A stretch of 64,000 nt of DNA from Brachyspira innocens ATCC 29796 (GTDB lineage Bacteria; Spirochaetota; Brachyspiria; Brachyspirales; Brachyspiraceae). The notes below the pieces were generated by a model, which was not told where the DNA came from, searched no databases, and worked only from the letters and a program-made list of their open reading frames with translations. The translations under genes and the position numbers were made by a program. The first letter of the stretch is position 1. Each line of letters opens with the position of its first letter. The stretch spans positions 1 through 64,000 of the forward strand of contig NZ_ARQI01000120.1 in NCBI RefSeq assembly GCF_000384655.1. The letters run 5' to 3'. Shown piece after piece: positions 1 to 64,000 of the stretch.

Positions 1-178
1 TATCTTACATGTAACACAACTTTAGTATTATTTAGTACTAATTTTTTACACTTGCACTTTCGCGAAGCGTATCCGAGCTTGTCGAGGATATAAGGTTCTT
101 TGACGAAGTCCGCCTGTGGCGTGCGGCGGGAAAAAGTTGACTAAAAAAATTGACAAACTTAAAAATTTTCAGTATATA
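1..178 (+). repeat. Dispersed mosaic repeat, copy 1
   Basis: This intergenic tract upstream of the ribokinase gene contains GC-rich blocks (54-94 and about 105-131) that stand out from the AT-rich surroundings. The first block recurs in inverted orientation at about 7147-7186. The second recurs inverted at about 7793-7826 and 44165-44200. The palindrome TTACATGTAA (5-14) also recurs in other copies. The right edge (150-178) is the conserved promoter-like edge of the family. No ORF is supported here. The left end of the element may lie outside the window. Confidence 0.75.
150..178 (+). promoter_or_regulatory. Repeat-borne sigma-70 promoter upstream of ribokinase
   Basis: TTGACA at 150-155, a 17-bp spacer and TATATA at 173-178 face the ribokinase gene, 122 bp before its start codon. 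The same 29-bp block forms the edge of other repeat copies. A second possible -10 (TATAAT, 252-257) lies nearer the gene but has no good -35, so which one is used is open. Confidence 0.55.
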
Positions 179-4284: not shown

Positions 4285-4327
4285 ACTATAGTTAGCATTT
4301 TTATATAATTTATTTAATATTATAGTC
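4285..4327 (-). promoter_or_regulatory. Candidate C-box operator upstream of the controller gene
   Basis: The palindrome ACTATAGT (4285-4292) and a GACTATA half-site (4321-4327, minus strand) lie 38-80 bp upstream of the controller start. They resemble the GACT/AGTC dyads of C-protein operators, but the match is loose. Confidence 0.3.
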
Positions 4328-4356
4328 TCTACTACCAGATTTTTAATAATACCATA
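4328..4356 (+). repeat. Right direct repeat flanking the R-M cassette
   Basis: This is the exact second copy of 2336-2364. Read in the batA frame it also ends in a stop codon (TAG here, TAA in the left copy), so either copy could be the ancestral gene end. Confidence 0.9.
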
Positions 4357-4459
4357 GTTTTATATGTATAATAATATTAATTAATACTATATATAATAAT
4401 AATTTTTAGATAAGTTAATAGTTATTTATACTAAATTGTAATAATTATCATATATTTCC

Positions 4460-5793: not shown

Positions 5794-7050
5794 TTATTTT
5801 AAATTACCGAATCCTAAATATTCCATAGCTTCAAATACCCTGTCATTACATAAAGGAATATTTTCATTATCGCTCATAACACCATATAACTCTTTAACAC
5901 AGCTTTCACCAAAAGCTTGTAATTTAAAATCTTTATTATATATACAGTTAGCCATTTTTATTTCATACGGTTCATTATTATATAATAAATAATAAATTGT
6001 TCTTATTATATTTTCTAAACTATTGTTTGTGTCCAAAAATTTTTCTTTCATAGAATTATCTGAAAAAAAACGTCTTCTATCTCTAAAAGCATTAATAAAT
6101 AATAAAGCTTCATATAATTCATTATAAGATACTGTATTTATATTGTTTTCTTTTAAAGTATTTCGGCATCTGTTATAATTTTTAATATATTCATCTTCAA
6201 TTTTATAATTATCATAATATTCTTTAATAAGATATTGTAATTTTAGTTCTATTTCATTATCATTAATTTTAATATAACTTTTTTCTTTTATTTTATTTTC
6301 TTTGATCCAGTTTAAAAACTGATCCATTTCTATTTTTAATGGTAAATCATTATATTTCCTATTAATTTGAAGTTTCATAAGAGATGATGTATACATTTCA
6401 GTTAATTTTTTATAACAATCCAAAAATATTTGATATTTTCTTTTAAAATCTGAAATATATGATAATTTTTTACTTTTTTTAGTATTATCAATAGTTGTAA
6501 TATTATTAAATTTAAAATCACCTATTTCTTCTTTTAATATTTCATTAAATTTTTTTAATTTATTATCTAGATCATGATATTCTTCTTCTATTTTTGAATA
6601 TTTTTCTATTATATTATCATTTAGTACTTCAGCACTTTCCCAATAATCATAAAAACAATTTATTAGATCATCAAAAATTATATTATCAGAATCTATTGAA
6701 ACATTTATCTCTTGATTAGATAATATACCGCTTTTAGTTAAATTTGATGAACCTATAAATGCTTTTGTATTTCCAAATATATATAATTTAGGGTGAAAAC
6801 TATCTGAAGTAAAAAATCTAATATGTACATTTTTTTTATTATATACATCTTTTAATCTTTCTATAGAAGTTGCTAATGATAATCTTACAATAAGTTTTAT
6901 ATTACAATTTTTTTCTACAGCTTTATTTATTATTTCTGTATCATTAAAAAATGCAGTTGCTATAAATATATCATCATTTTCTTTTATACTAGCAATCAAT
7001 GCTGTTTTTAAAAAATCATGTTTATCATTAGAATTTGTAAATAAATTCAT
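5794..7050 (-). CDS. Phospholipase D-like domain protein, possible nuclease
   Basis: This is a 418-residue protein with an N-terminal PLD-type domain. H86 and K88 in FHPKLYIF, followed by GSSNLT (100-105), form one HxK...GSxN half-site. Only one such motif is visible, so an active enzyme would need a dimer, as in single-motif PLD nucleases of the NgoFVII/Nuc type. The rest is Lys/Glu/Asn-rich and helical, with a likely coiled coil at about 150-185 and no recognisable domain. There is no signal peptide, so it is cytoplasmic. It is a lone gene between metK and a repeat tract. Its promoter lies at the edge of repeat copy 2, and an AGGATAAG SD precedes the ATG. A defence or DNA-processing role is only an inference from the domain and from the nearby R-M genes. 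Confidence 0.6.
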   Translation of the reverse strand: MNLFTNSNDKHDFLKTALIASIKENDDIFIATAFFNDTEIINKAVEKNCNIKLIVRLSLATSIERLKDVYNKKNVHIRFFTSDSFHPKLYIFGNTKAFIGSSNLTKSGILSNQEINVSIDSDNIIFDDLINCFYDYWESAEVLNDNIIEKYSKIEEEYHDLDNKLKKFNEILKEEIGDFKFNNITTIDNTKKSKKLSYISDFKRKYQIFLDCYKKLTEMYTSSLMKLQINRKYNDLPLKIEMDQFLNWIKENKIKEKSYIKINDNEIELKLQYLIKEYYDNYKIEDEYIKNYNRCRNTLKENNINTVSYNELYEALLFINAFRDRRRFFSDNSMKEKFLDTNNSLENIIRTIYYLLYNNEPYEIKMANCIYNKDFKLQAFGESCVKELYGVMSDNENIPLCNDRVFEAMEYLGFGNLK

Positions 7051-7079: not shown

Positions 7080-7108
7080 ATTATACTAAAAATTTTTAAG
7101 TTTGTCAA
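7080..7108 (-). promoter_or_regulatory. Consensus sigma-70 promoter at repeat edge, drives the PLD gene
   Basis: Read on the minus strand this is TTGACA (7108-7103), 17 bp and TATAAT (7085-7080), a perfect match to consensus. It ends 30 bp before the PLD gene's ATG at 7050. The same block is the edge of the dispersed repeat. Confidence 0.8.
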
Positions 7109-7320
7109 TTTTTATGTTGTTCTTTTTCCCGCCGCAAAAGTTGCTTATATCCTCGACAAGCTCGGATACGCTTCGCGAAAGTGCGAGGATAGAATTAGTA
7201 CTAAATCATACTAAAATTGTCTTACATGTAAAATAATTTATTAAATTAAAGCCCAAGTGCAGCCTTTTTGCTTCTTTGTGGCAACAAAAGAAGTGGGGTC
7301 TGGGGCAAAGCCCCAGATAT
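7080..7320. repeat. Dispersed mosaic repeat, copy 2
   Basis: This copy is inverted relative to copy 1. It starts with the promoter edge (7080-7108), then a short CCCGCCGC block, then the 41-bp block shared with copy 1 (about 7147-7186), then the palindrome TTACATGTAA. A third module (about 7265-7317) carries two hairpins, one from the CTTCTTT/AAAGAAG arms and one TGGGGC/GCCCCA. That third module also occurs in copy 7. Confidence 0.75.
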
Positions 7321-7344
7321 AAAAACAAAAATATCAATTTATTT

Positions 7345-7375
7345 CTGACAAAATATAGTTGTTTAGGTATATACT
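7345..7375 (+). promoter_or_regulatory. Promoter-like module, second spacer type
   Basis: CTGACA (7345-7350), 17 bp and TATATA (7368-7373). The spacer (TATAGTTGTTTAGG type) differs from that of the mosaic-repeat edge but recurs at 15559-15588, 39460-39488 and, inverted, 63947-63975. Confidence 0.45.
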
Positions 7376-7747: not shown

Positions 7748-7840
7748 TATATACTAAAAATTTTTGAGTTTGTCAATGTTTTTATTGTCTTTTTCCCGCC
7801 GCACGCCACAGGCGGACTTCGTCAAAGTTGCAAAAAATTC
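7748..7840. repeat. Dispersed mosaic repeat, copy 3
   Basis: The promoter edge (minus-strand TTGACA 7776-7771, 17 bp, TATATA 7753-7748) is followed by the GC-rich block at about 7793-7826, which matches the inverse of copy 1 over more than 30 bp. The promoter points into the gene remnant. Confidence 0.75.
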
Positions 7841-7899
7841 ACATACTATAGCTTAATATTTTAAGAATATATATCAAACATGGTATAACACCTAGCTTT

Positions 7900-8111
7900 A
7901 TATAAAAAATGCAGTCTTTCACAAAGCGTATTCAAGCTTGTCGAAGATATAGGTTCTTTTGGTCATACCTACACTTACAGTGGACTTTGTCAAGTACTTC
8001 CTTCGTCGCAAAAGAACTGTTGCGTAAGCATGCAGAGCAGTGGACAAACCACCATAAACAATAAAATTAAAAGATTAGTAGTTGACAAACTTAAAAAATT
8101 TCAGTATATAA
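7900..8111 (+). repeat. Dispersed mosaic repeat, copy 4 (diverged)
   Basis: This copy has the same order and orientation as copy 1: the AAGCGTAT..CAAGCTTGTCGA block, the CTTTGTCAAG block, then the promoter edge. It has many substitutions and a longer middle. The promoter edge itself is nearly unchanged, so it is better conserved than the interior. Confidence 0.6.
8083..8111 (+). promoter_or_regulatory. Repeat-borne sigma-70 promoter upstream of pheA
   Basis: TTGACA (8083-8088), 17 bp and TATATA (8106-8111), continuing into AAAT. It faces pheA, 82 bp before its ATG, and no better promoter lies between. Confidence 0.65.
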
Positions 8112-8193: not shown

Positions 8194-9318
8194 ATGTTAT
8201 CTGAAGAATTACAGGAATTAAGAAAAGAAATTGACAGAATTGATAAGCAAATAGTAAATTTGATAGATGAAAGAATGAAAGTTAGTCTTAAAGTAGGAGA
8301 GACAAAAAAGAAATATAATGCCCCTATATTTGACCCGAAAAGAGAAAAAGAAGTTATAGCAAAAAAAATAGAACTGCTTGAAAATAAAGATTTATCATCA
8401 TTAATAACAACTATGTATAATGATATAATGTACACATCAAAACAGCTTCAGAAACATTTAATTGATGAAGGTAGTGATAACAAAAAAGAAAATGGTAATA
8501 ATAAAGAAAAAATAAAATATGATAAGAGAGTAGTTTATCAGGGCAGAGAAGGCGGAAACGGACATGAGGCTGCTTTGAAATTTTTTGGTGAAAATGCATG
8601 TCTCATAAAAAAGGCATATTTTAATGATGTACTTGAAAGCATAAGAAGCGGTGAGAGTTATTACGGTGTTTTACCTTTAGAAAATTCTTCTACTGGTATG
8701 GTTAATGAGGTTTTGGATATACTTGCCGATTATAACTGCAAAATTGTTGGAGAGATATATTTACCTATAGAATACGGTCTTATGGCTAAAAAGGGGATCA
8801 GTATAAAAGATATTAAAAAGGTTATATCTCATCATCAGGCTTTGAAACAATGTTCTAATTTTATAAAAGAAAATAGTTTTGAAGAGATAACAGCATCAAA
8901 TACGGCAGAAGCTGCTTTTATAGTTTCTAATGGAGATGATAAAACCATTGCTTCTATTTCAAATAAAAATGCCTGTAAGATTTATGATTTAGATATGCTT
9001 GAAGAAAATATTGAAAATATAAAAGGAAACACTACACGCTTTATAATAGTAGCTAATTATGATAATGCTTTAAATAGCGGAAACAAAATGACTATGAGAT
9101 TTTTGCTTCCTCATGAAAACGGCAGTTTGGCTAATTCTCTTGATAAATTAAAAAGTTTTAATTTAACTTCTATAGTAAGCCGTCCTCATAGTGACAGAAA
9201 ATGGCAGTATTATTTTTATATTGATATGACAGGAGACTTTGATAAATATAAAGAAGAGTTTGAAGATTTTAAAAGAAGTGTAGAGAATTTGATAATATTG
9301 GGGCAGTATGATGAATAA
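8194..9318 (+). CDS. pheA: Bifunctional chorismate mutase / prephenate dehydratase
   Basis: PheA turns chorismate into prephenate and then phenylpyruvate for phenylalanine synthesis. Residues 1-90 are an AroQ-type chorismate mutase (LRKEIDRIDKQIVNLIDERM, then DPKREKEV). Residues from about 110 to 285 are the dehydratase, with the catalytic TRF motif in NTTRFIIV near 285. Residues from about 295 to 374 are an ACT domain with the SRP motif (SIVSRPHS) expected for phenylalanine feedback. The 374-residue length fits. A repeat-borne promoter lies upstream. Its end overlaps aroK by 11 bp, so the two aromatic-pathway genes are translationally coupled. Confidence 0.95.
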   Translation: MLSEELQELRKEIDRIDKQIVNLIDERMKVSLKVGETKKKYNAPIFDPKREKEVIAKKIELLENKDLSSLITTMYNDIMYTSKQLQKHLIDEGSDNKKENGNNKEKIKYDKRVVYQGREGGNGHEAALKFFGENACLIKKAYFNDVLESIRSGESYYGVLPLENSSTGMVNEVLDILADYNCKIVGEIYLPIEYGLMAKKGISIKDIKKVISHHQALKQCSNFIKENSFEEITASNTAEAAFIVSNGDDKTIASISNKNACKIYDLDMLEENIENIKGNTTRFIIVANYDNALNSGNKMTMRFLLPHENGSLANSLDKLKSFNLTSIVSRPHSDRKWQYYFYIDMTGDFDKYKEEFEDFKRSVENLIILGQYDE

Positions 9319-14311: not shown

Positions 14312-15388
14312 ATGACAGACTATTTAAATAAAGAGACTTACAATTTTTATTTGCCAGAAAATTTAATAGCAACAGAGCCTAATTATGAAAGGGATCATTG
14401 CAGATTAATGACTTTAAATAAAAATACTGGAGAATTAGAACATAAAATATTTGCAGATATTATAAATTATTTAAATAAAGATGATGTATTAGTTTTAAAT
14501 GACAGCAAAGTAATACCTGCAAGAATATACGCAAAAAAATCTACAGGCGGAAATGCTGAAATACTTCTTCTTAATAAAGTTAACAATGATGAAAGCACTT
14601 GGGAATGTTTGATAAAGGGTAAAAATATTAAAGAGTCTGATACACTATATTTAGATTATGCTCATTTAGACAATGTAGGAAATATTGAGGCATTTATAGA
14701 AAAAGATAATATATCTACTAAATTAATAAAGTTTTCAAAACCATTAACAAATGATATTTTAGATACTATAGGAAAAATCCCTCTTCCTCCATATATAATT
14801 CAAAGCAGAAAAAGAAAAGGTGAAGAAGAGTACAACATCAATGATAAAGAGTTTTATCAAAATGTATATGCCAAAAATGAAGGAAGTATCGCTTCTCCTA
14901 CTTCTGGACTTCATTTTACTAATGAGCTTTTAGACAAAATAAAGTCTATTGGTGTTACAGTATGTTATGTTACTTTGCATGTTGGTTTTTCTACTTTTAA
15001 TCCTCTAAAAGAAGATGATTTACGTAATCATGTTATGCATGAAGAGAAGTTTATTATTCCAAAAGAAAGTTATGATATTATAATCAATGCTAAAAAAGAT
15101 GGTAGGAGAATAGTATCATGCGGCACTACAGTTTCAAGAGTATTAGAAAGTGAATATGATAATTATGATTTCAAAAGGCTTGAAGGCTCTACAAATATCT
15201 TTATTTATCCGCCTTATAAGTTTAAATGTGTTGACGCTCTTATAACCAATTTTCACACACCGCATTCAACTTTGCTTGCTATGGTTAGTGCTTTTGCTGG
15301 CTATGATAATATAATGAATGCTTATAAAACAGCCGTAGATAATAATTATAGATTTTTTTCATATGGCGATGCTATGTTTATATACTGA
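14312..15388 (+). CDS. queA: tRNA queuosine ribosyltransferase-isomerase
   Basis: QueA transfers and isomerises the ribosyl part of SAM onto preQ1 in tRNA to make epoxyqueuosine. The 358-residue length is typical. Family landmarks are all present: the N-terminal YLPENLIATEP, VLNDSKVIPARI near 65, EGSIASPTSGLHFT near 190, LHVGFSTFNP near 225, and TNFHTPHSTLLAMVSAFAG plus the terminal YRFFSYGDAM. The last codons and the stop (ATA TAC TGA) are supplied by the edge of repeat copy 5, so the repeat sits exactly at the gene's end. It uses SAM, linking it loosely to metK. Confidence 0.96.
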   Translation: MTDYLNKETYNFYLPENLIATEPNYERDHCRLMTLNKNTGELEHKIFADIINYLNKDDVLVLNDSKVIPARIYAKKSTGGNAEILLLNKVNNDESTWECLIKGKNIKESDTLYLDYAHLDNVGNIEAFIEKDNISTKLIKFSKPLTNDILDTIGKIPLPPYIIQSRKRKGEEEYNINDKEFYQNVYAKNEGSIASPTSGLHFTNELLDKIKSIGVTVCYVTLHVGFSTFNPLKEDDLRNHVMHEEKFIIPKESYDIIINAKKDGRRIVSCGTTVSRVLESEYDNYDFKRLEGSTNIFIYPPYKFKCVDALITNFHTPHSTLLAMVSAFAGYDNIMNAYKTAVDNNYRFFSYGDAMFIY

Positions 15389-15590
15389 AAATTTTTAAGT
15401 TTGTCAAAAATATCTTTTTAAATTTAAAATATTTGCAGGGCTTTGCCATTACTGAGTAACGCTGTGTGATACTTACCAGTTATTTTATGATGTCTGTCCG
15501 AACTGTATTTGATGAAGTCGCGGCAAAAAAGTTGATAATTCTGTATAAACTGCATTAGTTTACAAAATAAAATTGTTTAGGATATACTAA
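15379..15590. repeat. Dispersed mosaic repeat, copy 5
   Basis: The promoter edge (minus-strand TTGACA 15407-15402, 17 bp, TATATA 15384-15379) overlaps the last codons of queA and points back into it. The interior is strongly diverged but keeps GATGAAGTCGCGGCAAAAAAGTTGA-like fragments near 15510-15535. A second-type promoter-like module (TTTACA 15559-15564, TATACT 15583-15588) closes it on the right, in plus orientation. Confidence 0.55.
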
Positions 15591-39459: not shown

Positions 39460-39600
39460 TTGACAAACTATACTTGTTAGGTATATACTAAAAATTTTTA
39501 AGTTTGTAGATTTTTTATCCTTTGGATATGCTTCGCGAAAGAATGCATATCTATATATTAAAATGATAATTTATACAACATGTAAGACATTATTTTTATA
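39460..39600. repeat. Dispersed mosaic repeat, copy 6
   Basis: Two promoter modules meet head to head around a shared TATATAC. The second-type module on the plus strand is TTGACA (39460-39465), 16 bp, TATATA (39482-39487). The first-type module on the minus strand ends in a decayed -35 (TCTACA, at 39509-39504). TGCTTCGCGAAAG and ACATGTAAGACAT fragments of the interior follow. No gene lies downstream of either promoter at close range. Confidence 0.5.
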
Positions 39601-44118: not shown

Positions 44119-44400
44119 GTATATACTGAAAATTTTTAAGTTTGTCAATTTTTTATTCAACTTTTTCCCGCCGCACACCGCAGGCGGACTTCGTCAAAGT
44201 TGCAAAAAGTGCAAATCTAAAAATAATACTAAATAGTACTAATTATATTTTACATGTAGAATAAATTATTAAATTTAGCCTGAAATATGGCCTTTCACGA
44301 CTGCGGGCTGTGCCTGCTTCTTTGTGACAGCGTCCAAAAGAAGTGGGGTTTGGCACGACTATGAAGCCACAACTATAACTAAAAAAATACTAAATAAAAA
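44119..44400. repeat. Dispersed mosaic repeat, copy 7
   Basis: The promoter edge (minus-strand TTGACA 44148-44143, 17 bp, TATATA 44125-44120) is followed by the GC-rich CCCGCCGC...GGCGGACTTCGTC block (44168-44200), an ACATGTA palindrome and the CTTCTTTGTG...AAAGAAGTGGGG module also found in copy 2. The promoter points at the flavodoxin terminator, with no minus-strand gene to serve. Confidence 0.75.
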
Positions 44401-45714: not shown

Positions 45715-46725
45715 ATGAAGAAATTTTTTATTTTATTATTGGTATTATTATCTTCTTCTCTTATTTTATATACACAGAAAAAAAATAATTCTATAGGTGT
45801 AGCACTTTATAGATATGATGATAATTATATGAAATATTTAAAACAATATATAGAAAAAAATATTACATCTTCCTTGCTTATAGTTGACTCTTATAACAGT
45901 CAATCAACTCAGAATGCCCAAATAGAAATGCTTCTAAAAAAGAATGTTAACTTACTTGCTGTTAATTTAGTAGATAAAAGTCAGGCACAAAAAGTAATAG
46001 ATAAAGTGAGCATAAAAAATACGCCTATAGTATTTTTTAATAGAGAACCAAATCCAGAAGTTATGAATACATATGATAAAGTATGGTATATTGGAGGTAC
46101 TAGCGAGGAGGCTGGAATGGCTCAAGGCAGAGTTATAGCAGAAAGCTGGAAAAACAGGCTTAATTGGGATAAAAACCAAGACGGAAAAATACAAGCTGTC
46201 ATAATAAAAGGAGACCTTAACGACTCTGATACAATAAACAGAACAGAATACATGAAAAAATATATATCATCAAACAATATAAAAATGGATATATTAGCTG
46301 AAGTTTCTGCTATGGGAAAAAAAGATAATGCAGCAAAAGTAATGGAAAATCTAATAGCCAAATACGGTGAAAAGATAGAATATATTATATGCAATAATGA
46401 TTATATGGCTTTAGGGGCATTAGAAACATTAAGGAAGTTAGGACTTAACAAAAACAGCAGAATGCTTAACTATATACCAATAATAGGAATAGACGGTATA
46501 CCAGAATGTTTAGAGGAGATAAAAAATTATGGTATATTTGCTACAGTGCTTCAAAATCCAGCAATTCAGGCTGAAGTATTATCTTCTATATCAAGCAATA
46601 TAATAAACGGCAAATCACCTTTAGACGGAACACATTTTAATTTTTATAATAATAAATATGTTGTAATACCCTATATACCAGTAACATTATCCAATATAGA
46701 CAGGGCTATAAAAATATACGAATAA
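45715..46725 (+). CDS. MglB-like periplasmic sugar-binding protein, paralogue 1 (no lipobox)
   Basis: A 336-residue periplasmic-binding protein of the galactose/glucose type, closely related to the three that follow. It alone has no Cys in or after its signal peptide (LLVLLSSSLILYTQ), so it cannot be lipidated and should be soluble or held by the uncleaved signal. By eye, ligand-site residues differ from the other copies: the His of GHPD is Asp (NDSD) and the sugar-stacking Trp of AMWD is missing (AMGKKD). NLVD, NNDYMALGAL and GIDGIPE are kept. A different ligand or a sensory role is likely. Confidence 0.85.
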   Translation: MKKFFILLLVLLSSSLILYTQKKNNSIGVALYRYDDNYMKYLKQYIEKNITSSLLIVDSYNSQSTQNAQIEMLLKKNVNLLAVNLVDKSQAQKVIDKVSIKNTPIVFFNREPNPEVMNTYDKVWYIGGTSEEAGMAQGRVIAESWKNRLNWDKNQDGKIQAVIIKGDLNDSDTINRTEYMKKYISSNNIKMDILAEVSAMGKKDNAAKVMENLIAKYGEKIEYIICNNDYMALGALETLRKLGLNKNSRMLNYIPIIGIDGIPECLEEIKNYGIFATVLQNPAIQAEVLSSISSNIINGKSPLDGTHFNFYNNKYVVIPYIPVTLSNIDRAIKIYE

Positions 46726-46942
46726 ATAGTTATAATCTAACTTTGAAGTTATTTATGAATATGCAGTATTTCCATATACAAAACTAGTTAGGTGTACAGT
46801 ATTATAAAATAAATTAGTTTTAATAATCACAAAGCATTTAAATATTATTCAAAACATTAAATTTAGTTTAAAAATAGCTCTGATATTAAGTTTATCAATA
46901 AAAAATTATAATAATAAATTATAATTTTTTACATATTTTTAT

Positions 46943-46971
46943 TTGACTTATAAGTTTTTTTTTCATAAACT
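46943..46971 (+). promoter_or_regulatory. Candidate promoter of MglB paralogue 2
   Basis: TTGACT (46943-46948), 17 bp and TAAACT (46966-46971), 31 bp before the ATG. Confidence 0.5.
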
Positions 46972-47002
46972 AAAATAATAACTAATAAAATAGGAGCTTT
47001 TT

Positions 47003-48031
47003 ATGAATAAAGCAATTTTTTCTTTTTTGATTATATCATTATTTTTATTAATAAGCTGTTCAAATAATACAAAGACGGCCGATGATGAAATAGAACTAGG
47101 AATTACAATATACAGATATGATGACAGCTTTATTTCATTTATGAGAAGAAATATTGAGACTATGCTTAATGGAAAGGCAAAATTTATAATGAATGATTCG
47201 GAAAACGATCAGGTAAAACAAAATGATCAGGTAGATGCTGCAATTCAAAGAAATGTAAATGCTTTGGCTATTAATTTGGTTGATCCTGCATCAGCAAGTT
47301 TTATGATTAATAAAATCAGACCTGCTGGAATACCTGTAATATTTTTTAATAAAGAACCAAGTAAAGAAGATATGTTAAGCTATGATAAGGCATGGTATGT
47401 AGGTACTTTAAGTGAAGAATCAGGTAATATGCAGGGAGATATAGTAGTAAAAGCATGGAAAGAAAATACTTCTTGGGATAAAAACGGTGACGGAAAAATA
47501 CAATATGTTCTTTTAAAAGGAGAAGCAGGACACCCTGATGCTGAAGCTAGAACAGAAAGAATCAAAGCTGTATTAACAGATAATGGCATAGAAATAGAAC
47601 AATTAGATGAGCAGACTGCTAATTGGGATATACTTCAGGCTCAGACAGCTGCAGATTCTTGGATAGAGAAGTACGGTAATGATATAGAGTTTATATTTTC
47701 TAATAATGATGCTATGGCTTTAGGAGCATTAAAATCTATTCAAAAAGAAGGATATAATATAGGCGATAATAATAAATTTATACCTATAGTAGGAGTAGAT
47801 GCTATACCAGAAATTATAGAAGAAATAAAAAAAGGTACAGTAGTTGGTACAGTTTTACAAAGCCCTAAAGATCAGGCTCAGGCAATAGTAGACATGCTTC
47901 TCAATGCTGCCAAAGGACAAGATGTACTTGCAGGAACTGAGTATAAACTAGACGATGTAAAAGCTGTAAGAGTACCATACAGAGCTATTACATTAGAAAA
48001 TATCAATGAGGCGGCAGAAGCATATAAATAA
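47003..48031 (+). CDS. mglB: MglB-like sugar-binding lipoprotein, paralogue 2
   Basis: A 342-residue lipoprotein (lipobox LLISC, C19) of the galactose/glucose-binding family. It keeps the calcium-loop-like DKNGDGKIQ, the GEAGHPDAEART ligand segment with His, Asp and Arg, the stacking Trp in ANWDI, FSNNDAMALGAL and VGVDAIPE. The hinge Asn of LND in paralogue 4 is LQS here. It should deliver sugar to MglA/MglC. Paralogue 3 follows after 61 bp, probably on the same transcript. Confidence 0.9.
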   Translation: MNKAIFSFLIISLFLLISCSNNTKTADDEIELGITIYRYDDSFISFMRRNIETMLNGKAKFIMNDSENDQVKQNDQVDAAIQRNVNALAINLVDPASASFMINKIRPAGIPVIFFNKEPSKEDMLSYDKAWYVGTLSEESGNMQGDIVVKAWKENTSWDKNGDGKIQYVLLKGEAGHPDAEARTERIKAVLTDNGIEIEQLDEQTANWDILQAQTAADSWIEKYGNDIEFIFSNNDAMALGALKSIQKEGYNIGDNNKFIPIVGVDAIPEIIEEIKKGTVVGTVLQSPKDQAQAIVDMLLNAAKGQDVLAGTEYKLDDVKAVRVPYRAITLENINEAAEAYK

Positions 48032-48092
48032 CAAATTTATAAATTATGTTTTAAATGTTTGAAAACAGTAAAATAAAATTTCAGGAGCATAC

Positions 48093-49127
48093 ATGGGCAG
48101 AAAAATTCTATTATTGCTAATAATTTTAACAAGTTTTATTATATCTTCATGTTCTGAAAATAAAAATAATAATAGTTTCATAGGAATTACTGTCTATAGA
48201 ACAGATGATCCTTTTGCCAACAGCTTAAAAAGTAATATAGAAAAATTTATATCTGGAAGAGCAAAATATATAGTAAATGACTCTCAAAATAATCAAACTA
48301 CGCAAAATAGTCAGGTAGATAACTATATTTCAAAAGGATCTAAAGTTCTAGTAATAAATTTAGTAGATACTCAGGCAGCACAGGATATAGTGGATAAAGC
48401 TAAAAAAAGCGATATTCCTATAATATTGTTTAATAAGGCACCAGACCTTTCAGTGATGAATAGTTATGATAAAGTATGGTATGTAGGCACTTTAAGCGAA
48501 GAAGCCGTTAATCTTCAGGGAAAAATTATTACTGATAGTTGGAAATCAAATCCTTCTTGGGATAAAAATGGGGATGGTAAGATTCAATGTGTAATACTTG
48601 AAGGAGAACCAGGTCATGCTGATACAAAAATTAGAACGGAAAATCTTATATCATTTATTGAAAATAGCGGTATAGAATTGGAAATATTGGATAAAAAAAC
48701 GGCTATGTGGAACAGAGACAGGGCTAAAACTATTGTAGATTCTTGGATGTCTAATCACAATAATGAAGATTCTGATACCAAAATAGAGTACATATTTTCA
48801 AATAATGATGAAATGGCATTAGGAGCTTTAAAATCTGTACAGGGATTCGGATATAATAAAGGCGAATCAGATAAATTTATCCCTATAGTAGGAATAGACG
48901 CCATTGATGAAACTATTAAAGAAATTGAGAAAGGAAATATAGTTGGTACAGTTCTCAATGATAGTGTGAGTCAGGCTAAAGCAGTTTCTGATTTAGCACT
49001 TAACCTATTTAAAGGTGAAACTTCAAATCCTATATTAGGTACAGCTTGGACATTAGATAATACAAAATCTGTAAGAGTACATTATAAACCAATAACTATT
49101 GAATTACCAGATACTGTAAATAAATGA
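48093..49127 (+). CDS. mglB: MglB-like sugar-binding lipoprotein, paralogue 3
   Basis: A 344-residue lipoprotein (lipobox ISSC, C20). All main ligand residues are kept: GEPGHADTKIRT, AMWNRD, FSNNDEMALGAL, VGIDAIDE and VLND. The first ligand segment reads YRTDDPF rather than YRYDDNF, so one contact differs. An AGGAG SD lies before the ATG. A terminator follows, separating paralogues 1-3 from the paralogue 4-mglA-mglC operon. Confidence 0.9.
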   Translation: MGRKILLLLIILTSFIISSCSENKNNNSFIGITVYRTDDPFANSLKSNIEKFISGRAKYIVNDSQNNQTTQNSQVDNYISKGSKVLVINLVDTQAAQDIVDKAKKSDIPIILFNKAPDLSVMNSYDKVWYVGTLSEEAVNLQGKIITDSWKSNPSWDKNGDGKIQCVILEGEPGHADTKIRTENLISFIENSGIELEILDKKTAMWNRDRAKTIVDSWMSNHNNEDSDTKIEYIFSNNDEMALGALKSVQGFGYNKGESDKFIPIVGIDAIDETIKEIEKGNIVGTVLNDSVSQAKAVSDLALNLFKGETSNPILGTAWTLDNTKSVRVHYKPITIELPDTVNK

Positions 49128-49145
49128 TATATTTAAGTAAGAAAG

Positions 49146-49180
49146 AAAGACAGCTGATAGTAATATTGGCTGTCTTTTTT
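49146..49180 (+). terminator. Terminator after MglB paralogue 3
   Basis: A perfect 9-bp AAAGACAGC/GCTGTCTTT stem running into T residues. Confidence 0.85.
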
Positions 49181-49288
49181 CAATTCTGTATTAATTTCAA
49201 ATTAATTAAGTTATATTTGTAATATAAATGTAATATTATTTTACAAAAACAATAAAAACTAATCATAATATTATAAGTAAATGTTATT

Positions 49289-49303
49289 ACGCAATTAATG
49301 CGT
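49289..49303 (+). promoter_or_regulatory. Candidate operator upstream of mglB paralogue 4
   Basis: A palindrome ACGCA-ATTAA-TGCGT lies 103 bp before the ATG and 25 bp upstream of a possible -35 (TTGACT, 49329-49334). It is CG-rich for this DNA and the right size for a LacI-type or similar repressor/activator. The matching -10 is uncertain (TTTATA at 17 bp or TATATA at 19 bp). Confidence 0.45.
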
Positions 49304-49405
49304 ATTGTCAAAATGTAAAAAATTTGTTTTGACTTGATTTAAGAAAATAAATTTATATACTAATTAAATATAGAGAATATTAATTAATTTAAGGAGTTTT
49401 CTAAA

Positions 49406-50458
49406 ATGAAAAAATCACTTATCGTTATAGGAGCATTAATAATGTCTTCTATTTTTGTACTATCATGCGGCGGCAATTCTTCTTCATCTGCAGCAGCTTC
49501 TACTGACGGTCCGACTATCGGAGTAACAATTTATCGTTATGATGACAACTTTATGTCTTTCTACAGAAGAAATATTGAAAGCAGAATCGCTGGAAAAGCT
49601 AATTTAATAATCAATGACTCACAAAATAACCAAGCTCAGCAAAATGACCAAGTTGATGTTATGATTCAAAAGGATGCAAAAGCATTAGCTATTAACTTGG
49701 TAGACCCTCAGGCAGCTCAAACTATCATAGATAAAGCTAAAGCTAAAAATATACCAGTTATTTTCTTTAACAAACAGCCTAGTGCTCAGGTTATGGCTAG
49801 CTATGATAAAACTTGGTATGTAGGTACTACTCCAGAAGAATCAGGCGATATGCAAGGAAAAATCGTTGTAGATACTTGGAAAGCTAATCCTGCTTGGGAC
49901 AGAAACGGAGACGGAGTTATACAGTATGTATTATTAAAAGGCGAACCAGGCCACCCAGATGCTGAAGCTAGAACTAGCCATGTTACTATGTACATTACTA
50001 ATAATGGTCTTAAAGTAGAAAGATTGGAACCAGAACAAACTGCTATGTGGGATACAGCAAAAGCTAAAGATATAGTAGATGCTTGGATGCAAAAACATGG
50101 CGATAAAATTGAATATATTTTCTGTAACAACGATGCTATGGCTTTAGGTGCTTTACAATCAGTACAAGCTTTAGGATACAACAAAGAAGGCGATACTACT
50201 AAATATATACCTATAGTTGGTGTTGATGCTATTCCAGAAATGATTAATGAAATCAAAAAAGGAACTGTAGCAGGTTCAGTACTTAATGACCCTGTAGGAC
50301 AATCTCAGGCTTTAGTTGATGTTACTTTGAATGCAGCAGCTGGAAAAGATCCATTAGATGGTACTACTTGGACTTTGGACGAAGTAAAAGCTATTCGCGT
50401 TCCTTATGTTCCTATAACTAAAAATAATGTAAATGTTGCTGAAGAAGCATATAAATAA
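49406..50458 (+). CDS. mglB: Glucose/galactose-binding lipoprotein MglB, paralogue 4 (operon copy)
   Basis: This 350-residue lipoprotein (lipobox VLSC, C21) is followed directly by mglA and mglC and is the canonical binding protein of the importer. It has every expected feature: YRYDDNF, NLVDPQAA, the calcium loop DRNGDGVIQ, GEPGHPDAEART, AMWDTAK, FCNNDAMALGAL, VGVDAIPE and VLNDP. Its codons are less AT-rich than the other copies, which suggests high expression, and an AAGGAG SD precedes the ATG. A hairpin after the gene would keep its mRNA in excess of mglA. Confidence 0.95.
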   Translation: MKKSLIVIGALIMSSIFVLSCGGNSSSSAAASTDGPTIGVTIYRYDDNFMSFYRRNIESRIAGKANLIINDSQNNQAQQNDQVDVMIQKDAKALAINLVDPQAAQTIIDKAKAKNIPVIFFNKQPSAQVMASYDKTWYVGTTPEESGDMQGKIVVDTWKANPAWDRNGDGVIQYVLLKGEPGHPDAEARTSHVTMYITNNGLKVERLEPEQTAMWDTAKAKDIVDAWMQKHGDKIEYIFCNNDAMALGALQSVQALGYNKEGDTTKYIPIVGVDAIPEMINEIKKGTVAGSVLNDPVGQSQALVDVTLNAAAGKDPLDGTTWTLDEVKAIRVPYVPITKNNVNVAEEAYK

Positions 50459-63946: not shown

Positions 63947-63975
63947 TATATACCTAAACAAATATAGTTTGTAAA
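63947..63975 (-). promoter_or_regulatory. Promoter-like module, second spacer type, inverted
   Basis: On the minus strand: TTTACA (63975-63970), 17 bp with the TTGTTTAGG spacer end, and TATATA (63952-63947). It matches the modules near 7345, 15559 and 39460. No gene is close downstream. Confidence 0.4.
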
Positions 63976-64000
63976 TTTTTTAATTAAGTTTTAATTACTG

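Follow-up and report, generated by a model that had tools for sequence, protein, structure and literature searches.

The stretch of DNA analysed here, which we call the window, covers 64,000 nucleotides of Brachyspira innocens ATCC 29796 and begins at the start of contig C120. It carries several copies of a short repeat with a promoter-like 29-bp edge. A first-pass annotation had placed this edge at seven sites, and we recovered all of them: 150-178 and 8082-8110 on the plus strand, and 7080-7108, 7748-7776, 15379-15407, 39482-39510 and 44120-44148 on the minus strand. Dinucleotide shuffles gave an expectation of 0. Six of the seven edges read TTGACA, 17 bp and TATATA or TATAAT, as had been described, and the remaining edge begins with TCTACA. 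The GC-rich modules also recur in both orientations. The edge is real, but it is one of two end types. We refer to it as the L end and to the second type, which had been overlooked, as the R end. Once R ends were found, the tracts at 7080-7369 and 15383-15583 could be read as complete L-to-R elements and 39460-39510 as an R/L junction, and one more copy was seen to leave the end of the window. The features are as follows.

1-174, plus strand: 3' part of copy 1, with the rest in contig C50 (contig overlap) and the L end at its end; target-site duplication TA at 175-176.
150-178, plus strand: L end of copy 1 (0 mismatches), outward TTGACA-17-TATATA, 122 bp before a pfkB-family kinase gene at 301.
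7084-7369, minus strand: copy 2, complete by L/R end pairing, also present and identical in genome G009.
7080-7108, minus strand: L end of copy 2, outward TTGACA-17-TATAAT (12/12 match), facing a PLD-like gene at 5794-7050.
7345-7373, plus strand: R end of copy 2 (3 mismatches to the R consensus), new to this analysis.
7752-8106, no strand assigned: copy 3, complete by edge matches and pairing, with L ends at 7748-7776 (minus) and 8082-8110 (plus).
15383-15583, minus strand: copy 4, from L and R end matches, with a degenerate R end at 15559-15587 (5 mismatches).
39460-39510, no strand assigned: R end 39460-39488 (degenerate, one base deleted) back-to-back with L end 39482-39510, from end matches.
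44124-44400, minus strand: copy 6, from its L end match at 44120-44148, plus interior modules.
63947-64000, minus strand: R end 63947-63975 (3 mismatches) of a further copy leaving the window, also new to this analysis.

The first 285 bp of C120 are identical to the end of contig C50, indicating that the first element carries on into C50. Two tracts that had been counted separately, 7748-7840 and 7900-8111, are halves of one 355-bp element (copy 3) with an L end on each side, and its plus-strand L end faces a chorismate mutase/prephenate dehydratase gene at 8194. Copy 5 is a decayed remnant that reaches ~39600 from the junction at 39460-39510, and copy 6 has no recognisable R end within 44124-44400. 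The tracts had all been called intergenic, which does not hold for 15379-15407: this end overlaps a queA-like ORF (14312-15388) whose stop codon lies within the L end of copy 4. Similarly, the TATATA edge belongs to the element only in part. The element ends at CAGTA, and beyond it come the duplicated target TA and two bases of flank. At 7080-7108 it is the target that provides the final two bases of the -10.

Two other repeats lie in the window. A 46-bp direct repeat (89% identical) occupies 2322-2367 and 4314-4359, and the alignment to G009 jumps from 2193-2364 to 4314 onward, as if the intervening DNA had been deleted in G009 or inserted in the window. The region 46021-50458 corresponds to four tandem paralogous genes of ~1 kb (60-77% DNA identity) at 45715, 47003, 48093 and 49406.

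The unit consists of an L end (TTGACAAACTTAAAAATTTTCAGTA), ~300 bp and an R end (TTGACAAATTATAATTGTTTAGGTA), with a duplicated TA on both sides. The R end, also represented as TTGACAAATTATAATTGTTTAGGTATATA, was seen opposite the L end on aligning loci, and the two ends are identical at 21 of 29 bases. The host genome contains 31 pairs of outward-facing ends spaced 159-470 bp apart, 28 of which combine L with R. Over all loci collected we distinguished 162 units (median 314 bp; L+R in 141). The mosaic look of the repeat arises from units with two L or two R ends, and from L ends attached to a right half in inverted orientation. Outward-facing terminal inverted repeats on a short, multi-copy unit lacking its own transposase are as expected of an IS630-derived MITE.

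Across the 3.28-Mb host genome we counted 81 L ends (≤3 mismatches) and 82 R ends; a reversed-sequence control for the L end returned 0. These counts are slightly inflated, since the C50/C120 overlap, with its 285 identical bases inside an element copy, is one locus counted twice. Contigs C72 and C92 have mirrored end positions, seemingly a second overlap of this kind. The repeats probably cause many assembly breaks. The first-pass annotation had proposed a search of the edge across the genus, and copies are indeed many: 23 of 26 Brachyspira genomes are positive, with 2 to 203 copies each, and the edge is absent from the other 3. In a scan of 84,980 species genomes, every title among the matches listed was Brachyspira, and a viral collection held no exact L-end copy. 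As far as searched, the family is confined to Brachyspira.

Comparing occupied with empty sites, as had also been proposed, revealed how the element inserts. A 339-bp element in G008 aligns to an empty site in G007 at 98.4% identity. The occupied site reads ATTATAA-TA-TACTTAAA...TTTCAGTA-TA-TATTAATAATG, where the element runs from TACTTAAA to TTTCAGTA, and the empty site reads ATTATAA-TA-TATTAATAATG. A second G008 element (310 bp) has inserted at the outer TA of an R end that is present without it in G007 (97.2% identity). The comparison was filtered to remove repeat-on-repeat matches. These data indicate that insertion duplicates TA, which adjoins 97% of ends. Insertion beside an existing end leaves an end-to-end junction of exactly 52 bp, and 12 such junctions occur in the host genome. 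Element positions are polymorphic between related genomes. In a 280-kb region, 0 of 11 ends in G007 were common to G008 (the genomes are ~91.5% identical where aligned), suggesting that positions turn over fast. Of the window copies, those at 7080-7369 and 7752-8106 are also found in G009, inside a locally 100% identical block.

The first-pass annotation reported no transposase. This is correct for the host genome, where DDE_3, tnp DNA and HTH searches found no trace of a transposase gene, but a parental insertion sequence (IS) is present in other Brachyspira. DDE_3 had one match among the 26 Brachyspira genomes, in Brachyspira sp. G79 (G015). It lies between two ends that span 1060 bp, one L (1 mismatch) and one R (3 mismatches). 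This decayed 1.06-kb IS (locus L175, 756-1815) has broken reading frames. The C-terminal part of its ORF remnants matches DDE_3 (E 1.7e-11) and NF033545 transpos_IS630 (E 7e-14), and its N-terminal 79 aa carry a helix-turn-helix signature below the cut-off. Judged by end spacing in the collected loci, which also include other pairs 0.6-3.5 kb apart, L175 was the only recognised candidate for an autonomous element. We recovered no intact parental IS, the sole full-length copy being the broken one.

A multi-copy IS typically breaks the contigs of a draft assembly. In G014, G024, G023 and G020, contigs break inside the same IS, adjoining L ends (MDFNLTDEEIKFLK...) or R ends (...SNKWKRELSIALAENFHLFEN*). 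From these breaks we infer that the IS is intact and present in several copies in these four genomes. The short units thus share their ends with an IS630-family element, as seen in the decayed copy and at the contig ends of the four genomes, and are probably mobilised by an IS630 (Tc1/mariner-type) transposase. Their interiors have nothing in common with the IS except the ends. A plasmid search returned only IS630 helix-turn-helix relatives (~37% identical), and a quick alignment of IS630 relatives from other spirochaetes (G180 and others) gave no comparable inverted repeats.

Taken together, the tracts are very probably non-autonomous MITE copies of the IS630/Tc1-mariner superfamily, with any promoter activity of their ends a by-product that is not kept for host genes. 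An IS630 transposase would act in trans, binding the ends, excising the unit and pasting it at TA. It would prefer TATA targets, including the outer TA of existing copies, which would produce the 52-bp junctions.

The sigma-70-like edge is part of the element, as had been claimed, and this applies to both ends. Each end carries TTGACA, 17 bp and TATA, of which the element gives the first TA and the duplication the second; two flank bases then finish the -10. Loci were retrieved without R ends, and of these ends 68% give TATATA and 5% TATAAT. With these target-supplied bases, many copies would probably have weak to good outward sigma-70 activity. The sigma-70 likeness might instead be coincidental, the ends being AT-rich transposase binding sites that drive no transcription, a view compatible with MITE identity and one that we consider possible but rather doubtful. 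Promoter-like matches overall are no commoner than in shuffles of this AT-rich DNA (126 vs 118), and the hexamers are not the only parts of the inverted repeat common to L and R. In addition, exact native TTGACA..TATAAT pairs outside elements in Brachyspira loci peak at a 16-bp spacer (23) rather than 17 bp (3), which calls for caution about the activity of 17-bp ends. Against coincidence, the ends score 10-12/12, far over typical chance matches, with A/T-rich DNA upstream; the end at 7108-7080, at 12/12, is the best match in the first 16 kb.

Also against coincidence are near copies of the L end in two distant spirochaetes with AT-rich DNA, G050 and G075. Here, single-copy sequences ≤3 mismatches from the L end stand before genes, and for 10 of 16 the start of an ORF on the same strand is no more than 80 bp away. 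An L-end-like sequence may therefore be a form of spirochaete promoter, and the occurrence of near-identical sequences before genes in two distant spirochaetes makes outward promoter activity of the ends plausible, as judged from sequence. We rejected horizontal transfer of the element to G050 and G075, as the matches are single-copy and apparently native promoters. The loci concerned (L260-L276) have single-copy TTGACAAAnTTAAAAnTTTTnaGTATAnT before genes, which may represent the consensus of housekeeping promoters in those lineages.

It is also conceivable, though unlikely, that the ends work in an expression circuit of the transposon itself. On the IS, a promoter-like TTGTCA-16/17-TATAAT in the L end points inward, ~8 bp upstream of the transposase start codon, and its -35 overlaps that of the outward TTGACA-17-TATA. 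Old ends accept new insertions at their outer TA, so the outward promoter of a neighbour could come to lie before a transposase gene. Clustering would in this way raise transposase expression, the MITEs then being mobile promoters for their helper. At the end of contig C76 of G024 (L233), a MITE L end abuts an IS630 L end, with the predicted outward promoter aimed at the transposase start.

The first-pass annotation also read each copy as a potential portable promoter. A stronger reading, with the edge under selection to drive neighbouring genes, we judge highly improbable. Both ends do carry TTGACA-17-TATA, three copies in the window have a gene start no more than 130 bp ahead of them, and sequences of this kind apparently serve as native promoters in distant spirochaetes. 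Placement runs the other way. Relative to expectations taken from intergenic TA sites, elements between convergent genes are enriched (45/123 vs 19.5 expected, P = 2e-8) and those between divergent genes depleted (19/123 vs 36 expected, P = 5e-4), while 59/123 lie in tandem (67 expected) and 0 are intragenic. Gene starts are faced by 38% of ends, compared to 57% for random intergenic TA sites. Isolated ends are few, with no enrichment before genes. Genes were called as plain ORFs of ≥90 aa and loci sampled via L ends, which makes these effect sizes approximate. Orthologous ends are no more conserved than the interior, although the data are few: G009 and the host genome share few copies, some in 100%-identical blocks, and G007 and G008 share none. 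The convergent enrichment and divergent depletion do not support selection as portable promoters. Under the MITE reading, promoter activity would be tolerated mainly where genes cannot be misdriven and would not be retained for host expression.

The interiors fold into hairpins. In the minimal unit, L041 (263 bp), hairpin 1 is GGTTCTTTTT-CCCGCCGC-AAAAAGAACC, hairpin 2 is CTTCTTT...AAAGAAG and hairpin 3 is CTGGGGC-AAA-GCCCCAG, and either strand of the unit is predicted to fold much more stably than its shuffles (z of -5.0 and -6.1). Stem 1 shows a compensatory switch from GTTC/GAAC to CAAC/GTTG among 17 aligned units (8 vs 8 sequences), with double-change cells exceeding all 500 shuffles. Larger units carry short GC-rich inserts within the hairpin loops. 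The module TATCCTCGACAAGCTCGGATACGCTTCGCGAA was detected in 17 of the 26 Brachyspira genomes and was absent from the other spirochaetes searched. By eye, no T tract follows the stems, and a terminator role was rejected. The strong predicted folding and the compensatory changes would also suit functional, structured small RNA genes repeated by chance. We hold this to be about as improbable as selected promoters, as the only Rfam match in the window is a tRNA, interiors rearrange, invert and lose modules, positions are polymorphic and folding is equal on both strands, as palindromes would give. Within the MITE reading, the hairpins would keep pairing while their sequences change, and the pairing may be kept by selection or by palindrome-correcting replication errors.

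Of the two classes named by the first-pass annotation, MITE-like stands (IS630 family, TA target, two distinct ends), and REP-like, meaning REP/BIME palindromic units that lack transposon ends and TA duplication and are spread by a RAYT-type enzyme, can be dismissed with near certainty despite the GC-rich hairpins, covarying stems and location near gene 3' ends, because the repeats have defined terminal inverted repeats, their insertion duplicates TA and an IS carries the same ends.

Three known systems come closest. RUP of Streptococcus pneumoniae is an intergenic MITE of ~100 copies with IS630-Spn1-like terminal repeats and a TA target (PMC2229807). The Brachyspira MITE is likewise intergenic, with ends matching an IS630-family IS and a TA target, but RUP is 107 bp, whereas the Brachyspira unit is ~300 bp, its L and R ends differ, its GC-rich interior holds several hairpins and inserted modules, and the helper IS is missing from the host genome. 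The Correia element of Neisseria (CREE/NEMIS) is a TA-flanked MITE whose 'Black' promoter has the -35 and part of the -10 in the element, insertion completing the -10 (PMC2649163). The Brachyspira MITE has this geometry at its ends, and it shares the TA flanks and the potential for hairpin RNA; host phylum and interior differ. The CREE promoter is proven at some genes, whereas the Brachyspira promoter is predicted and the elements avoid gene fronts. The CREE helper is not known in that report, whereas the probable Brachyspira helper is an IS630-family IS. ISY100, a bacterial Tc1/mariner element, encodes a single transposase with an N-terminal HTH and a C-terminal DDE domain and duplicates TA (PMC2170065). 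The Brachyspira IS resembles ISY100/IS630 in matching IS630 models; ISY100 is autonomous and biochemically characterised, whereas the only full Brachyspira copy recovered is broken. A B. pilosicoli paper provides context for Brachyspira elements (PMC3532143). The literature searched made no mention of Brachyspira together with IS630, and this is apparently a new IS630-derived MITE family, not previously described in Brachyspira.

These results describe a large and evidently mobile MITE family in most of the genus Brachyspira and name its probable helper IS. Many repeats between genes, and many breaks in draft assemblies, can be put down to this family. With up to two predicted promoters per copy, it is to be considered in transcriptome studies of Brachyspira, which are gut bacteria. 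It also provides a clean natural setting in which to ask whether selection keeps or purges transposon ends that bear promoters; their placement says that they are purged from gene fronts.
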